Below, one piece after another: positions 32,524 through 40,058 of a DNA stretch of 64,000 nucleotides. Both the position numbers and the translations under genes were made by a program. This stretch comes from Rhizobacter terrae (GTDB lineage: Bacteria > Pseudomonadota > Gammaproteobacteria > Burkholderiales > Burkholderiaceae_C), in NCBI RefSeq assembly GCF_003852895.1, contig NZ_QUSW01000011.1, forward strand, positions 62,001 through 126,000, given 5' to 3'. The stretch's first letter is position 1, and every line of letters begins with the position of its first letter. The notes below the pieces were generated by a model. It was not told the DNA's origin, ran no database searches, and saw only the letters and a list, made by a program, of their open reading frames with translations.

Positions 32524-35500
32524 TCACTTCTTCTTGCGCGCCGTCTTCCTGGACGGCGTTGCCTTTTTGGCAGCCGCAACCGGCTTCGCTTTGCCCGCGC
32601 GCTTGCGAGGCGCTGGGGGCACCGCCACCTGCGTCGCCACGTCCATGGCCATGTCGTCCACCCGCACCGGCTCTTCATCCGGTGGTGTCACGAGGTTCAG
32701 GCGGCTGGCCAGCATCTCGATGCGCGCGCCCACCGAGCGCAGCGGTGGCACCTTGTCGCGCTTCTCGTAGGCACGGTGGAACAGCGCCATCTTGCGGATC
32801 TGCTTGACGACGGTGTCGCGTTCCTTGGGTGTCACGAACGACGTGGCCAGCGCTTCCTCGTAGGCATTCACCAGCGCATCCAGCGTGGCCGCGCTGCTTT
32901 CGGAGGCATCGACCAGCGAATCGTTGAGCAAGGCGGTGAGCAGCTGCGCGTCCGGCACCATCGTGGAGTTGTAGGCCTCGGGGTCGTCGGCGAAAGCGGC
33001 GTTGGCCGCCGCCGCGCAGCGCTGCACGTGCGCCAGGTAGGCGCGGCGCTCCTGTGGCCGGGCGGTGAGCGACCACAGGAACAGCCAGTTCAGCGTCGGG
33101 TAGGGGCGGACGATCTTGTCTTCCAGCTTGCTGGCCATGGCCTCGTAGCTGGCGCTGCTGCGCTGCAGTGCATCGCGCATGGCGTCGAAGTCGGCCGCCT
33201 TGCCCTGGGGTTCGAGGTAGGCGATGGCGTGCACGGCCGCCTTTCGCTTGTACGCGCTGCCCAGCAGCGCGGAGCGCTCGGCACTGCCCGCGCGCTCCGC
33301 CCTCGCGGCGGCCGTGGGTTCATCGCCAGGCACGACGCCGCCGGTGAGCCGCACCAGGTTCTCCAGCCGGTGGATGCCCGAGGCCACCATCTCCGGATCG
33401 TGGCTGTCCTCGCCCAGCCGGGTCTCGACATTGGCGAGCTGTTCGATGGCACGCAGCGGCACCTTGCCGTCGTAGTCGGCCGCTGCGATCGCGCGCAGGT
33501 ACTGCTCGCGTGCCTTGTCGAAGTAGCCTGGGCCCAGGTCGCCGTACACGTCGCCCGCGGCGCTCCACAGGTCGGGGCGCTTGGCCCAGTCCGGCGGGGC
33601 GGCGGCCAGCCACTGGCCCACGCGCTCGGCCACCCGCTGCGCCTCCATGCGCGAGATGGTCTCGCCGCTGCGCTGGATGACCTGCTTCTCGCTTTCCAGC
33701 TTGTCCAGCAACTCCTCCGGCGCCACGCCACCCCAGGCGGGCTGCAGCCGCGCCAGCGCGACCTCGGTCCTGGGGTCCACCCGCCAGCCGGGGTCGCCGT
33801 ACGCCTGGTAGGCGCCCCAGGTGATGCTCGCGGGGTATTGCTCCCAGGTCGTGCGGCGCGCGATGAACACCGATTCGCCGAAGCTCAGGTTGTCGGCCAG
33901 CAGGCGTTCGTAGAAGGTTTCGGCAAAGAGGCTGGCCGCCGCGTCTTCCACCGCCCAGCCCGCCACCACCACCGCGCGCACGCCGATGTCGATGAGCTGC
34001 CGCGCCACGCTGTAGGCCAGCTTGTTGAAGGCCACCGGTGCGCGGTCGATCTTGCCCAGGTGGCAGCAGTTGAGGAACACCAGGTCGGGCACGACCTCCA
34101 TCGCATCGATCTCGGCGGCGGTGATCATCAGCCCGTCGGACAGCACCACGCCGCAGCGCGCGCGGCCGTCGGTGCTGTCGGTGTACATGCCGTGGCCGGC
34201 GATGTGCACGATGCGGTACGGATGCTTGTACAGCCGGTTCACCACCTCGATGGCCCGCTGGTGGCTGCCGATGGTGCGCTCCACGTCGAAGCCGTGGCGC
34301 GCCAGTGAATCGGTGACGGTGGTGGCTTCCTTCTCGGCGGCGGGCAGGTCGTCCAGGGAATCGGGGTCGTGCGACTGGGAGTCTGGCCAGTGCGAGAAGA
34401 AGCCAGCGGTGGAGGGGTTGCCCACCACGTAGGCGCGCCGCTCCATGGTCTGGTTCACCCGGGTGCGGAACTTCGTCGACGAGAGCTGGCGGATCATCGC
34501 CGTGCGCGTGGCCAGCGGCTGGTCGTCGGCCAGCATCAGCTCCCAGGGGAAGTTGGCGGTGTAGCCGTCCAGCACGAAGACCATCTGCTGCATCTGCCGC
34601 GCGGCGTCCTTGAAGTCGTGCGGCACGAGCAGCTGGAACAGCGTGCGGCTGAAGTCCGGGTCGTAGGCCATGGACATGATCTGCCGCTCGACCAGCGTCT
34701 CCACCAGGCCGGGCTGGCGCTGCTGGACGATGGATTCCGCGCGGGCGCGCTGGCCGACGTAGAGGTAGTGCAGGCGGTCGGCGAGAGCAGTGCGTGCCTG
34801 GGGTGCATCGCCGGGCCGTGGGACGATGGGATCGTCTTCCTTGCGGTCGGCGTCGGTGATCATCAGCCGCGGCCAGTAGGTGCCGCCGCGGCCGTCGAAC
34901 AGCCGCTGGCGCATGCCCTCGCCCTGGTGCAGCAGCGGGTCCACCACGATGCGGCACGACAGGCGCTTGTCCGCATTCAGCGTCTGCGCGATCTCGCGTG
35001 CCGAGTACGTGGCGGTGATGGCCGAGTCGAGGTAGACCTCCACGATCTCCAGGCAGGCGATGCGCAGCTTGGAGCCGGTGGTCTGCGCGAAATGCTGGTT
35101 GGCCTCGACGGTGGCGCGGATCAGCGCCAGCACCGAATCAGCGATGGTGAGGTTGGCCGAGGAGTTGTAGCCGATGAGCAGGCTCGCGAGCTTCACGCCC
35201 TCGGCCTTCTCGGTGCCCGCGGCCACTGCGCCGCTGTCCATCACATGCACCAGGTAGCGCAGGCAGGCGGTGCGCAGGGCCTCTGTGAGGCTGCCCACCG
35301 TGAGCGAGCCGTCGTACTTGCCCAGGCCGGCCACCACGGCGCCGCGCATGCTGCCGCGCTGCTTCTCCTGGGCGCTGCTGTGCATCATCACGCAGCTCGC
35401 CGTGCCAATGGCGCCGGCATACAGGCCCAGGTGGTGCCGCACGGTGAGCTCGCCGTGCACGAGGTTCTTGTCGATCAGCGCCTCGGGGCCCGAGATCGCA

Positions 35501-38496
35501 TCCTGCTCGTAGTGGCCGACCATCAAGGGCTGCGTCACCTGGCGCAGGTCCATGGCGCGCACGCGCACGCCCAGCACGTCCTGGCGGCGGGCGCGCGAAC
35601 GCACCCGCTTGCCGGCGCCGAAGAGGCCGGCCGCGGCTTCGCTGTCGGTGGGGTAGGGCGTGGGGCCGGCGTCGTAGGAGGCCACGGTGGGCGCGGCATC
35701 GGCGCCGCGCACCGCGGGTGGCGTGGTCATCAGCTGCCCGCCTTCCCCGTGGTCCACCAGGCTGGCGATGGACTCGAAGTATTCCTCGGTGTCGGCCAGC
35801 GCGCCGTGTTCCGCCGGCATGTAGAAGAACTGGCCGATGCCGTCGATGCGGCCCGAATCCCAGGTGACGGATCCGTCGCCGTGCGGCGTGCCGAGCATCT
35901 TCCATCGGTCGCCTTCGCGCACGACGCCACAAGGCGTCTTGGCCGCGCAGCCGAAGACGTAGGCCACCTTCTTCTCATGCTTGGTGGGCAGCGCGGGCGG
36001 CACGCGCCGGTCCTGCAGCCACAGCCACTGGCCCTGCTTGAGCATTGCGGCCGAGGGCAGCGCGCCGATGCCGTCGCCGAACCAGAAGTCGCGCATGTCC
36101 TTCTTGAAGCTGCCCCAGGTGGCGGGCTCGAAGTATTCCGGCGTGCTGTCGTTGCCCGTGTCCTTGAAGCCCGGCTTGGGCAGCAGCTGCAAGGCGCCGG
36201 GGAAGCTGGCGATGATGTCCACCACCTCCTGCAGGTCGTGCGCGGTGTCCAGGATGCCCAGCTTGCGCACGGTCTCGGACTTGCCGATCAGCGCCTCCAC
36301 CATCAGGTGCGAGCCTTGGTGGGGCGTGCCCAGCATCACCAGCCGCGCTCCGTCGCGGCCCATCACTTCATCCCAGAGCTCGGGGTATTTGTGGATCAGC
36401 GCGCGCACCACCAACCCGCCCATGCTGTGGGCCAGCAGGCGCACCGGCTGCATCGGCGCCTTGGTGGCGTCCAGCTGCTGGCGCAGCACGGCGGCGAGCC
36501 GGTCGGCCAGCACGTCCATCGGCTGGCGCCAGTCGTAGGGGAAGGGCACGACGCGCTGGCTGCCTTCGAGGTACTTCTGCAGGTCGCCGTAGAACTGCGC
36601 GAAGAGGGCTTCGGCTTCCACCGTGTCCTTCTTGCTGCCCACGGTCTGCAGCTTGGCCAGCCCGCCCACGGCCAGCGAGGCGATGTTGAACCACACCCGT
36701 TCGCGGCCCGCCAGGCGCAGGTGCGTGCCCATGATGCCCGGCAGCAGAATGGTGACCGGCATGGGCGCGGTGGGCGGCAGCGCGCCGCGTGCACGCACGG
36801 GCGCGGCGACGCTGTCGTCCACGCCGCGCAGAGGCCGGAAGGCTTCCACCGAGTCGACCGAAGGCTCCAGCAGCCAGCTGCGCAATGCATTGCGCGTCGC
36901 ATCGTTGGTGAAGTAGCGGAAGTGGTTGACCTCCGGCCCCTGGTCGAAGAGCACGCGGGTGGTTTCGGGCCGCGCGATGCCGGCGGTCATGGCATCGGTG
37001 TCGACCACCAGGTCGTTGTCGACATTGCCGAAGAAGGTGAAGTCGGTGAACAGCACGCCCAGCCGCTTGAGCCAGCCGCCGCCCTCGATGTCACCGCTGA
37101 TGACCGCCAGCTTGATGCCGTCCTGCGGCGTCGCGCGGGCGAGGAAGCGCGCCATCGGCGAACCCGGCAGCATCGCCTCGATGCCCGGCACGAGGTTGGG
37201 CTTGGTGCGGTTCTTCGCGACCTCCAGCACCACGCGCTTGAAGGCCGAGTAGATGGGGTTTCCCTTGAACGCCGGCACCCAGCCCATGAGCGACAGCAGC
37301 GACGACAGGAACACATCGAAGTTGCCGCTGGCCAGCCGCGTGCCCCGCGCAGGCGAGGCCACGCGTACGTAGCGCTCGACGCGGATCTTCTTGCGAGCCA
37401 GTTCCGCCGCCAGCTCGTGCAGGGCGCTGCGTTGCTCGGCGTAGGCGCGGGTCAGCTCGGTGCGCAGGCGTTCGCGCTCGGCGGGGTCGGCTTCGCCCAG
37501 CTGGGCGTTGTCCAGCGCGTAGCCGTCGATCAGGTCATCGAAGTGATCGAGGCACATCAGGTCGCCGACCAGCCCGCCGCGCGAGTGGGTGACGATGTGC
37601 AGCTTGGCGCCTTCGGGCAGTGCGCGTGCCAGCTGCAGCGCGTTTTCGGCCGGACTCTCCGACAGCGTCCGGTGCTCGAAGGCCAGCACCCGGTCGCCGT
37701 AGCGGTCCTCGAAGTTGCGCCAATAGGCCGGTGATGCGCCTTGCAGCGCATCGAAGCTTCCGCTGGTGCTGGAGCCGGTGCCATGGATCATCACCAGGAA
37801 GGGCCCGGCAGGTGCCAGGGCAGCCAGTTGCCGATCGCCGGATTCGAAGCGCTGCACCAGCTCGCCGTTGACCCAGCGGTACAGGCCGGGCTCACGCTTG
37901 AGCCGGCTTTCGATGGCCCACATCAGCGCCTTGGTGCCCAGCCAGCTCACGCCCAGCTCGGCGTACTGCTCGATCTTGTCTTCCGCCTTCTGCCCCAGCC
38001 ATTCGCAGGCCTTGCGCTTGGCCGCGTCGATGATGGGGTCGGCGGCATGGCCGACGGTCACGGTGTAGATCTGCGAGACGATGGAGTTCAGGCCCTCGGC
38101 CATCGCATCGCCCAGTGCGCCTCGCATGGACGCGCCGCGTTCGCGCAAGGCGGTGTCGAAGACGATGGCGCCATCGGCATCGATGGCATTGGGATCGACC
38201 CGCTTCAGGGTGTCGCGCAGGTTCTGCGCATGGGTGATGACGGTGACGCCCTCGGGGAGTTCCATGACCACCACCTGGTTGGCGGTGGACGGCACGTCGC
38301 GAGGCACGTGGCCGGCCTCGCTGGAACGTGCGCTGGTGGAGAGGTCGTAGGCCCGGTCCACCTTGAGCAGGCCGCGCGGCAGGAAGGGATCGTCCTGTGC
38401 GACGGTGGCCGATCGCTGGCTGCTTTCGAAGACACGAGGCAGGCGCTCCGGCGGCAGGGGCGCGCCGCGCAGCTTCAGGGTCACGGGGTCTGCCAT
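32524..38496 (-). CDS. Giant dual alpha/beta-hydrolase and CHAT caspase-like protease protein
   Basis: A single uninterrupted 1990-residue protein. Domains, approximately: 1-215 unrecognised helical region; 230-560 alpha/beta hydrolase with MIHGTGSS and THSRGG (nucleophile S305); 585-890 second lipase-like hydrolase, ILLPGIMGTHLRLAG and AHSMGG (S691); 980-1200 segment with MVGHYEQDAISGPEALID and HHLGLYAGAIGTAS, a region seen in other large CHAT proteins; 1280-1560 CHAT domain, with the caspase-type dyad H1435 (AGHGMYTDS) and C1478 (FLNCCHLG). The remainder is helical, possibly TPR-like, ending in a Lys/Ala-rich tail. There is no signal peptide. CHAT proteases act in bacterial conflict and cell-death systems; that this one does is inference. 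No partner gene is adjacent. Confidence 0.82.
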   Translation of the reverse strand: MADPVTLKLRGAPLPPERLPRVFESSQRSATVAQDDPFLPRGLLKVDRAYDLSTSARSSEAGHVPRDVPSTANQVVVMELPEGVTVITHAQNLRDTLKRVDPNAIDADGAIVFDTALRERGASMRGALGDAMAEGLNSIVSQIYTVTVGHAADPIIDAAKRKACEWLGQKAEDKIEQYAELGVSWLGTKALMWAIESRLKREPGLYRWVNGELVQRFESGDRQLAALAPAGPFLVMIHGTGSSTSGSFDALQGASPAYWRNFEDRYGDRVLAFEHRTLSESPAENALQLARALPEGAKLHIVTHSRGGLVGDLMCLDHFDDLIDGYALDNAQLGEADPAERERLRTELTRAYAEQRSALHELAAELARKKIRVERYVRVASPARGTRLASGNFDVFLSSLLSLMGWVPAFKGNPIYSAFKRVVLEVAKNRTKPNLVPGIEAMLPGSPMARFLARATPQDGIKLAVISGDIEGGGWLKRLGVLFTDFTFFGNVDNDLVVDTDAMTAGIARPETTRVLFDQGPEVNHFRYFTNDATRNALRSWLLEPSVDSVEAFRPLRGVDDSVAAPVRARGALPPTAPMPVTILLPGIMGTHLRLAGRERVWFNIASLAVGGLAKLQTVGSKKDTVEAEALFAQFYGDLQKYLEGSQRVVPFPYDWRQPMDVLADRLAAVLRQQLDATKAPMQPVRLLAHSMGGLVVRALIHKYPELWDEVMGRDGARLVMLGTPHQGSHLMVEALIGKSETVRKLGILDTAHDLQEVVDIIASFPGALQLLPKPGFKDTGNDSTPEYFEPATWGSFKKDMRDFWFGDGIGALPSAAMLKQGQWLWLQDRRVPPALPTKHEKKVAYVFGCAAKTPCGVVREGDRWKMLGTPHGDGSVTWDSGRIDGIGQFFYMPAEHGALADTEEYFESIASLVDHGEGGQLMTTPPAVRGADAAPTVASYDAGPTPYPTDSEAAAGLFGAGKRVRSRARRQDVLGVRVRAMDLRQVTQPLMVGHYEQDAISGPEALIDKNLVHGELTVRHHLGLYAGAIGTASCVMMHSSAQEKQRGSMRGAVVAGLGKYDGSLTVGSLTEALRTACLRYLVHVMDSGAVAAGTEKAEGVKLASLLIGYNSSANLTIADSVLALIRATVEANQHFAQTTGSKLRIACLEIVEVYLDSAITATYSAREIAQTLNADKRLSCRIVVDPLLHQGEGMRQRLFDGRGGTYWPRLMITDADRKEDDPIVPRPGDAPQARTALADRLHYLYVGQRARAESIVQQRQPGLVETLVERQIMSMAYDPDFSRTLFQLLVPHDFKDAARQMQQMVFVLDGYTANFPWELMLADDQPLATRTAMIRQLSSTKFRTRVNQTMERRAYVVGNPSTAGFFSHWPDSQSHDPDSLDDLPAAEKEATTVTDSLARHGFDVERTIGSHQRAIEVVNRLYKHPYRIVHIAGHGMYTDSTDGRARCGVVLSDGLMITAAEIDAMEVVPDLVFLNCCHLGKIDRAPVAFNKLAYSVARQLIDIGVRAVVVAGWAVEDAAASLFAETFYERLLADNLSFGESVFIARRTTWEQYPASITWGAYQAYGDPGWRVDPRTEVALARLQPAWGGVAPEELLDKLESEKQVIQRSGETISRMEAQRVAERVGQWLAAAPPDWAKRPDLWSAAGDVYGDLGPGYFDKAREQYLRAIAAADYDGKVPLRAIEQLANVETRLGEDSHDPEMVASGIHRLENLVRLTGGVVPGDEPTAAARAERAGSAERSALLGSAYKRKAAVHAIAYLEPQGKAADFDAMRDALQRSSASYEAMASKLEDKIVRPYPTLNWLFLWSLTARPQERRAYLAHVQRCAAAANAAFADDPEAYNSTMVPDAQLLTALLNDSLVDASESSAATLDALVNAYEEALATSFVTPKERDTVVKQIRKMALFHRAYEKRDKVPPLRSVGARIEMLASRLNLVTPPDEEPVRVDDMAMDVATQVAVPPAPRKRAGKAKPVAAAKKATPSRKTARKKK

Positions 38497-39500: not shown

Positions 39501-40058
39501 TCAGCCGTGCAACCGGCTGTGCCGGGGCACGCTGGCCAGGAGGAATTCCATCTGGTCGGCCAGGATGCGCCGGCCGCGAAGAATCATGTCCTCGTGCAGG
39601 CTCGGCACGTAGGGCAGGTACATGAGCGACATGTGCGCCTCTTCGGGCAGGCGGTTTCCCTTGCGGCCGTTGCAGCCCCGGCAGGCGGTGATGCAATTCA
39701 TCCAGGTGTCGTGGCCGCCGCGCGAGGTGGGCGTGATGTGCTCGCGGGTCAGGTCGTCGGCGTGGAAGTTGCCGCCGCAGTACGCACAGACGTGGCGGTC
39801 GCGCACGAAAAGCTTGGGGTTGGACAGCGCCGGCGTCTGGCGCCAGGCCCGGCTGGGCACCGCGCCGCGCACGGCGATGATCGGGTGGACCTCGATGCGC
39901 GACTGCAGCCCGGTGGTGCGCTGCATGCCGCCTCGCATGACGTGAAAGGGCGCCCCCAGCGTCCAGGCGACGCCATCGCTGGCATAGATGCAGGCAGCTT
40001 CCTTTGCGGAAATCCAGGATTGAGGCCGGCCGGAAACGTCGAGTTGAAGCACTTCCAC
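39501..40058 (-). CDS. HNH-family endonuclease
   Basis: A 185-residue protein with an HNH nuclease motif: C91-x-x-C94 (CAYCGG), REHITPTSRGG with H107, then CRGCNGRKGN with C126, C129 and N130. The four cysteines bind a structural zinc; the HNH residues bind the catalytic metal. The N-terminal 80 residues are of unknown role. HNH proteins of this size are widespread in bacteria and are often solitary; some act in DNA repair or restriction. GTG at 40056-40058 is used as start because AAGGAG lies 9 bases upstream. It is divergent from the TetR gene, and not adjacent to a methylase or helicase. Confidence 0.82.
   Translation of the reverse strand: MEVLQLDVSGRPQSWISAKEAACIYASDGVAWTLGAPFHVMRGGMQRTTGLQSRIEVHPIIAVRGAVPSRAWRQTPALSNPKLFVRDRHVCAYCGGNFHADDLTREHITPTSRGGHDTWMNCITACRGCNGRKGNRLPEEAHMSLMYLPYVPSLHEDMILRGRRILADQMEFLLASVPRHSRLHG

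Follow-up and report, generated by a model that had tools for sequence, protein, structure and literature searches.

Among the caspase-like proteases of bacterial immunity, some are known to degrade proteins, others to open gasdermin pores or to unleash nucleases; those of the CHAT type include Craspase (the TPR-CHAT protein of type III-E CRISPR) and the proteases of CHAT-linked gasdermin loci. Burroughs and Aravind reportedly described TPR-S/CHAT conflict-system proteins in 2020; a 2020 J. Bacteriol. paper is said to have introduced TPR-S, and the published prediction for this domain is reportedly the binding of an NAD-derived signal. In type IV Thoeris, N7-cADPR made by a TIR enzyme activates a caspase-like protease, which degrades proteins, while in type II His-ADPR acts on a TM-macro effector (PMC12847820). 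Protease-gated pro-enzymes are an established immune device, with proteases unlocking pro-nucleases in Hachiman, AVAST and canu (PMC12799240). In the VMAP ternary systems, every caspase domain has an alpha/beta-hydrolase gene as its neighbour (Kaur et al. 2020, PMC7159879), and alpha/beta hydrolases of conflict systems have been interpreted as effectors that act on membrane lipids (PMC8195603). CHAT, TPR-S, the pairing of caspase with hydrolase and TIR-caspase signalling are already known; in the literature searched, whose scope left out many subscription papers, we found no single-chain architecture of two lipases and CHAT with a co-occurring metacaspase.

The gene described here lies in a window of 64,000 nucleotides from Rhizobacter terrae, the window being the whole stretch of DNA that was analysed. 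Its product, a lipase-CHAT protein referred to below as the giant, joins two lipase-like hydrolases, a CHAT protease and a probable sensor region in one chain. It resembles the TPR-S/CHAT conflict proteins in having CHAT followed by TPR-S and, across the family, NADase-type neighbours, but has, in addition, two lipase-like hydrolases at its N-terminal end and a metacaspase that co-occurs with it. Craspase and the gasdermin-CHAT systems likewise offer a CHAT protease with TPR repeats, with membrane damage as a possible outcome, though neither a CRISPR (Cas) nor a gasdermin gene is found among the listed families of 130 neighbours of giants. The MoxR-vWA-VMAP systems also tie a caspase-superfamily protease functionally to an alpha/beta hydrolase, but do so with separate genes, whereas the giant has two hydrolases and CHAT in one chain; the 25 families most frequent among the 130 neighbours include neither MoxR nor vWA. 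Activation of a pro-enzyme by a defence protease encoded with it, as in the caspase-nuclease (canu) and trypsin-gated pro-nuclease systems (PMC12799240), can serve for the giant as a model only; the candidate pro-enzymes of the giant are lipase-like and share one chain with the protease.

Drawing on the architecture, the conserved active sites, the associations with metacaspase and TIR genes and the absence of membrane segments, we put at about one in two the probability that the giant is a cytosolic multi-domain abortive-infection effector of TIR/caspase networks, in which protease-freed lipases would attack membrane phospholipids. If true, membrane-lipid hydrolysis would join the known outputs of bacterial caspase-like immunity, and there would be a two-protease cascade, open to testing, much like that of initiator and executioner caspases. 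Members of the family occur in many proteobacteria, on plasmids among others, and PADLOC-DB 2.0.0 (2023) has neither a match nor a model for the protein.

Layout and conservation of the giant

The giant is encoded by one unbroken ATG-to-stop ORF on the minus strand (window:32524-38496). The initial annotation left out the strand, the M17_N domain, the TPR-S identity and the metacaspase and TIR company elsewhere. The features are as follows.

32524..38496, minus strand: whole giant gene, 1990 aa; single ORF; 38 aligned rows; purifying selection
37822..38496, minus strand: variable N-terminal region, possible pro-region, residues 1-225; median column conservation of residues 1-200 is 24%
38326..38328, minus strand: Arg57, candidate P1 cleavage residue; Arg in 35/36 aligned rows
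38122..38124, minus strand: Arg125, candidate P1 cleavage residue; Arg in 35/35 aligned rows
36841..37821, minus strand: hydrolase 1, DUF7379-type alpha/beta hydrolase, residues 226-552; triad S305/D495/H525
36766..36840, minus strand: Arg-rich linker between the hydrolases, residues 553-577; variable sequence
35722..36765, minus strand: hydrolase 2, LCAT / group XV phospholipase A2-like, residues 578-925; triad S691/D874/H897
35542..35634, minus strand: basic linker, residues 955-985; Arg 12.4%, often a basic-residue cluster
34912..35547, minus strand: M17 aminopeptidase N-terminal-type (macro-like) domain, residues 984-1195; aminopeptidase domain absent
33772..34779, minus strand: CHAT protease domain, residues 1240-1575; H1435 and C1478
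32707..33729, minus strand: TPR / TPR-S helical repeat region, residues 1590-1930; fastest-evolving domain
32527..32706, minus strand: basic C-terminal tail, residues 1931-1990; poorly conserved, with about 10% each of Arg and Lys

The initial annotation had read two hydrolases, CHAT and a helical C-terminal region in this 1990-residue protein and had named profile searches and the catalytic residues of close homologues as checks; both bear it out. Pfam finds DUF7379 (PF24096) at residues 234-311 of hydrolase 1 (E 3.9e-35), LCAT/PGAP1/DUF676-type profiles at about 647-748 of hydrolase 2 (E 1e-6 to 4e-5; LCAT PF02450, E 1.1e-6) and CHAT (PF12770) at 1282-1568 (E 1.9e-29), the last match covering the whole domain (profile positions 3-289 of 289). 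The helical region is identified by Pfam as TPR-S/TPR repeats, the TPR-S match itself (1659-1807, E 2.4e-6) being marginal at 28.5 bits against a cut-off of 27.6. Residues 984-1195 match the N domain of a cytosol (leucine) aminopeptidase, 3jru, in a profile comparison (E 7.8e-5); Pfam finds Peptidase_M17_N in a shorter relative (L063) and not in the window giant itself. Pfam has no match in residues 1-225, and an NCBIfam search gave nothing useful. The N-terminal fold of M17 aminopeptidases is classed with the macro domains, and the M17_N and TPR-S regions of the giant may be able to sense. The highest 19-residue hydrophobicity mean is 1.31, not a value typical of a membrane segment or signal peptide; since no stretch is hydrophobic enough for either, the giant is probably cytosolic.

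S305 (in THSRGG), S691 (in AHSMGG), H1435 and C1478 lie where they were first placed, and the catalytic residues are retained in nearly all of the 38 rows of an alignment that includes the window giant and in which nearly all sequences are full length. For hydrolase 1 the counts are S305 36/37, D495 37/37 (an Asp assigned by motif, not by structure) and H525 37/37; for hydrolase 2 they are S691 35/37, D874 38/38 and H897 38/38; and the CHAT dyad of H1435 and C1478 is present in 38/38. A Gly replaces the catalytic Ser in three homologues, at S691 in two rows (one of them L039) and at S305 in one, with the other catalytic residues kept.

The solved chain closest to the CHAT profile is 8tl0 (E 5e-4), and no chain named as a CRISPR protease appears among the matches up to E 1. 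The AlphaFold2 model of residues 1-930, built from three input sequences, has a pLDDT of 39 and was excluded from fold searches; because this model of the N-terminal half is poor, occlusion of the hydrolase active sites is conjecture. In the model of the C-terminal half (pLDDT 50) only the TPR region is reliable, with helical repeats at a pLDDT of about 80, and Foldseek with this half returned generic repeat proteins only.

Complete giants are approximately 1750-2060 aa long and 28-83% identical to the window protein. Against the 83%-identical homologue from a Rhizobacter MAG (L005), dN/dS is 0.10-0.17 over the N-terminus, both hydrolases, M17_N and CHAT (hydrolase 1, 0.10; hydrolase 2, 0.13; M17_N, 0.10; CHAT, 0.10) and highest, at 0.36-0.41, in the TPR region. 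A chance ORF in a high-GC window is ruled out by the homologues and these ratios, and a fusion artefact by the identical architecture in dozens of genomes.

Within the poorly conserved residues 1-200 (median 24% of rows), R57 and R125 are near-invariant, and in residues 1-214 only G204 is better conserved. Both are flanked by small residues, R125 being followed mostly by G or D. The Arg share reaches 11.7% in linker residues 546-579 and 12.4% in linker 955-985, as opposed to 7-8% in the enzyme domains. Metacaspases cleave after Arg or Lys, so R57, R125 and the Arg-rich linkers would be reasonable P1 sites, and we mark them as candidates.

Metacaspase and TIR genes beside the giant and elsewhere

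A survey of homologue neighbourhoods for defence genes had been named as a further check, and here the family differs from what the window alone displays. With gene calls around the loci taken from a simple codon-usage script, a metacaspase of about 280 aa adjoins the giant in 13 of the 38 loci, directly upstream and on the same strand in 11 of them; its His and Cys are intact, and its closest solved chain is 3bij (E 4e-68). An unbiased Pfam scan of the 130 genes at +/-2 places caspase (13) and TIR (9) as the top two families, and PADLOC applied to the giants' neighbours reports caspase, ThsB-like TIR, MADS and type I MTases. Among 31 genomes, 13 of the 63 other C14 genes are found at most 2 kb from the giant (0.06 expected by density), and TIR genes lie within 5 kb in eight (0.43 expected); p-values for such proximity are optimistic, because these expectations ignore defence-gene clustering and genome relatedness.

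Three loci illustrate the arrangement. At L111, TIR-TPR, metacaspase, giant and DUF4062-NB-ARC genes form an operon on one strand, the first two genes overlapping by 4 bases; at L051 the order is giant, metacaspase, TIR; and at L112 it is metacaspase, giant, TIR-PASTA. DUF4062 is described as a TIR-like NADase family (PMC13174449). These operons resemble type IV Thoeris in combining TIR genes with a caspase-fold protease, as do the standalone TIR and metacaspase pairs of giant-bearing genomes (L120, L121). They differ from it in adding a protein of about 2000 aa with two hydrolases, CHAT and TPR-S; furthermore, the window has neither TIR nor caspase beside the giant, and an N7-cADPR signal could be proposed here only by analogy.

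Co-occurrence extends beyond adjacency. Defined by the A2 profile at E <= 1e-50, the metacaspase subfamily is present in 25 of the 399 genomes of the source order and the giant, in whole-genome searches, in 24, with 18 genomes shared. The metacaspase is thus found in 18/24 giant genomes versus 7/375 others (Fisher p 8e-21; by genus 13/17, p 3e-13). Where the giant has no adjacent metacaspase, 7 of 13 genomes, the source genome among them, carry one elsewhere, again versus 7/375 (p 2e-8), while six of the 24 giant genomes have none of this subfamily at the cut-off used. The giant usually has a metacaspase partner, adjacent or unlinked. Distances between giants and between metacaspases correlate (r 0.39, permutation p 6e-4), a value that still includes shared ancestry.

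Some observations count in the other direction. Adjacency is dispersed over the giant tree, with at least six changes, so it was gained or lost repeatedly and the partnership need not be a fixed one. The metacaspase of the source genome, which lies on another contig (304 aa; G000:C22:344395-345258; L127:7354-8268), sits on a divergent branch: its identity is about 30% to most of the giant-linked proteins and 68% to the one of L052, and this divergence counts against our preferred reading.

In genomes G224 and G254, the metacaspase lies apart from the giant and is paired with a TIR gene in a two-gene unit; it shares 71-74% identity with giant-linked metacaspases. Two-gene units of this kind, unlinked to the giant of the same genomes, lie at L120:5687-7663 and L121:5501-7535, each followed by a 3-hydroxyacyl-CoA dehydrogenase (3HCDH) gene; the latter was dismissed as a third partner, being an ordinary metabolic enzyme.

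For the effector idea of the initial annotation, the conserved metacaspase and TIR neighbours and the metacaspase co-occurrence offer strong, though circumstantial, support. The description of the protein as self-contained and without a sensor gene stands for the window, where nothing relevant is adjacent, but it does not extend to the family, in which a metacaspase partner is usual, nor to the chain, in which TPR-S and M17_N may sense.

Proposed mechanism and alternatives

The sequence of events that we infer, from ligand sensing to antiphage killing, would run as follows. At rest, the N-terminal region and neighbouring domains would hold both hydrolases inactive within one chain. Upon infection, a TIR-type enzyme would make an NAD-derived nucleotide to be bound by the M17_N (macro-like) and TPR-S modules; alternatively, activation of the partner metacaspase might be the trigger. 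CHAT, the metacaspase or both would then cut the giant at Arg/Lys sites (R57, R125 and the linkers before hydrolase 2 and M17_N), the freed hydrolases would attack membrane phospholipids, and the cell would die or stop growing before phage release. A specific form of this scheme is possible and is offered tentatively: a TIR nucleotide would activate a metacaspase, encoded beside the giant or elsewhere, that cuts a pro-enzyme of about 2000 residues at conserved Arg sites, and this pro-enzyme, with a CHAT protease of its own, would release two phospholipases, using lipases where gasdermin systems use pores.

The giant could instead be an immune effector in which CHAT and metacaspase execute by degrading proteins, as the type IV Thoeris caspase does (PMC12847820), with the hydrolases as regulators, adaptors or accessory enzymes. 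We regard this as unlikely. Hydrolase-free forms exist, namely a 936-aa CHAT and TPR-S protein (29.1 bits) between two TIR-nSTAND-WD40 genes (L062) and a short paralogue in genome G254 (L057), and the three rows mentioned above have another residue in place of the catalytic Ser in one of their hydrolases. Other relatives retain a hydrolase: LCAT hydrolase with M17_N and CHAT beside SIR2-pYEATS (L063), DUF7379 with CHAT beside SIR2-ATPase (L066), and an LCAT hydrolase beside an NB-ARC protein that carries CHAT (L065). A Qingshengfaniella plasmid (L064:7839-10361) has an LCAT hydrolase fused to a trypsin-like protease in place of CHAT. Pairings of hydrolase and protease thus recur, even with trypsin for CHAT, and both hydrolase triads of the giant are almost invariant and under purifying selection, unlike what one might expect of a mere scaffold. 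NAD-processing enzymes recur around short and long forms alike, as SIR2 or TIR genes adjoin module relatives and giants.

It is also rather doubtful that the giant is an immune effector with hydrolases that target acyl-proteins, acyl-CoA, cell-envelope esters or some other substrate in place of bulk phospholipid. Alpha/beta hydrolases are versatile; the profile of hydrolase 1 has no clear relative among solved structures, only an unspecific, weak match to a cinnamoyl esterase (E 0.05), and hydrolase 2 weakly matches a palmitoyl thioesterase (E 0.006). The best matches of hydrolase 2, however, are group XV phospholipase A2, the nearest (4x90, E 5.5e-8), and LCAT (5txf), with both of which it shares the YDWR stretch and the AHSMG elbow.

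The locus in the window, taken by itself, could be read as that of an ordinary metabolic enzyme that turns over lipid or polyester and carries a large regulatory tail. It looks chromosomal, is syntenic with relatives L004 and L005 and lies near beta-oxidation genes, the nearest recognisable operon consisting of acyl-CoA dehydrogenase, 3HCDH and thiolase, with much of the gene order kept in both relatives. In the window, the giant has no caspase, TIR or other defence gene beside it, which counts against the abortive-infection reading, and PADLOC matched none of the eight window proteins around it. Elsewhere, however, the neighbours are mainly caspase and TIR rather than metabolism. The giant is patchily distributed, scattered across proteobacteria (24/399 genomes of the order, with several more in the class) and carried on plasmids of Azotobacter, Ensifer and Paracoccus; its tree intermixes bacterial families, which suggests that the gene has spread horizontally. 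A turnover enzyme is accordingly disfavoured and quite improbable, and a housekeeping lipase was rejected in view of the patchy distribution and the caspase/TIR company.

Several smaller observations accompany these loci. A glycine-zipper gene (window:38951-39427) and an HNH endonuclease gene (39501-39926) lie upstream of the giant in an order conserved in L004 and L005. The source genome has a second, different large CHAT protein, of 1608 aa, in which pentapeptide repeats follow CHAT (L059:7102-11928). The Azotobacter copy (L060:1-7443) sits on a mobilizable plasmid, where a type I restriction-modification cluster, Fic genes and a recombinase are its neighbours. Homologues were also found in three MAG contigs, in two of which they end at contig edges; viral contigs and phage records were searched and hold no relative of the giant.

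Least probable of all is an antibacterial toxin that is secreted or injected: secreted toxins commonly contain lipase domains, and some neighbours are M15 peptidoglycan peptidases, but the giant has no stretch of membrane or signal-peptide grade, and no secretion system is prominent among the neighbours (Pvc16_N, only 2/130).

In seven of the 38 loci (L038:12986-13693, L041:6415-7104, L042:6518-7207, L043:8510-9211, L046:6561-7130, L047:12645-13172 and L106:12154-12819), the gene directly downstream of the giant, in either orientation, is of the M15 peptidoglycan-peptidase type or belongs to the same sequence cluster. Such a wall hydrolase next to two lipases hints at lysis.
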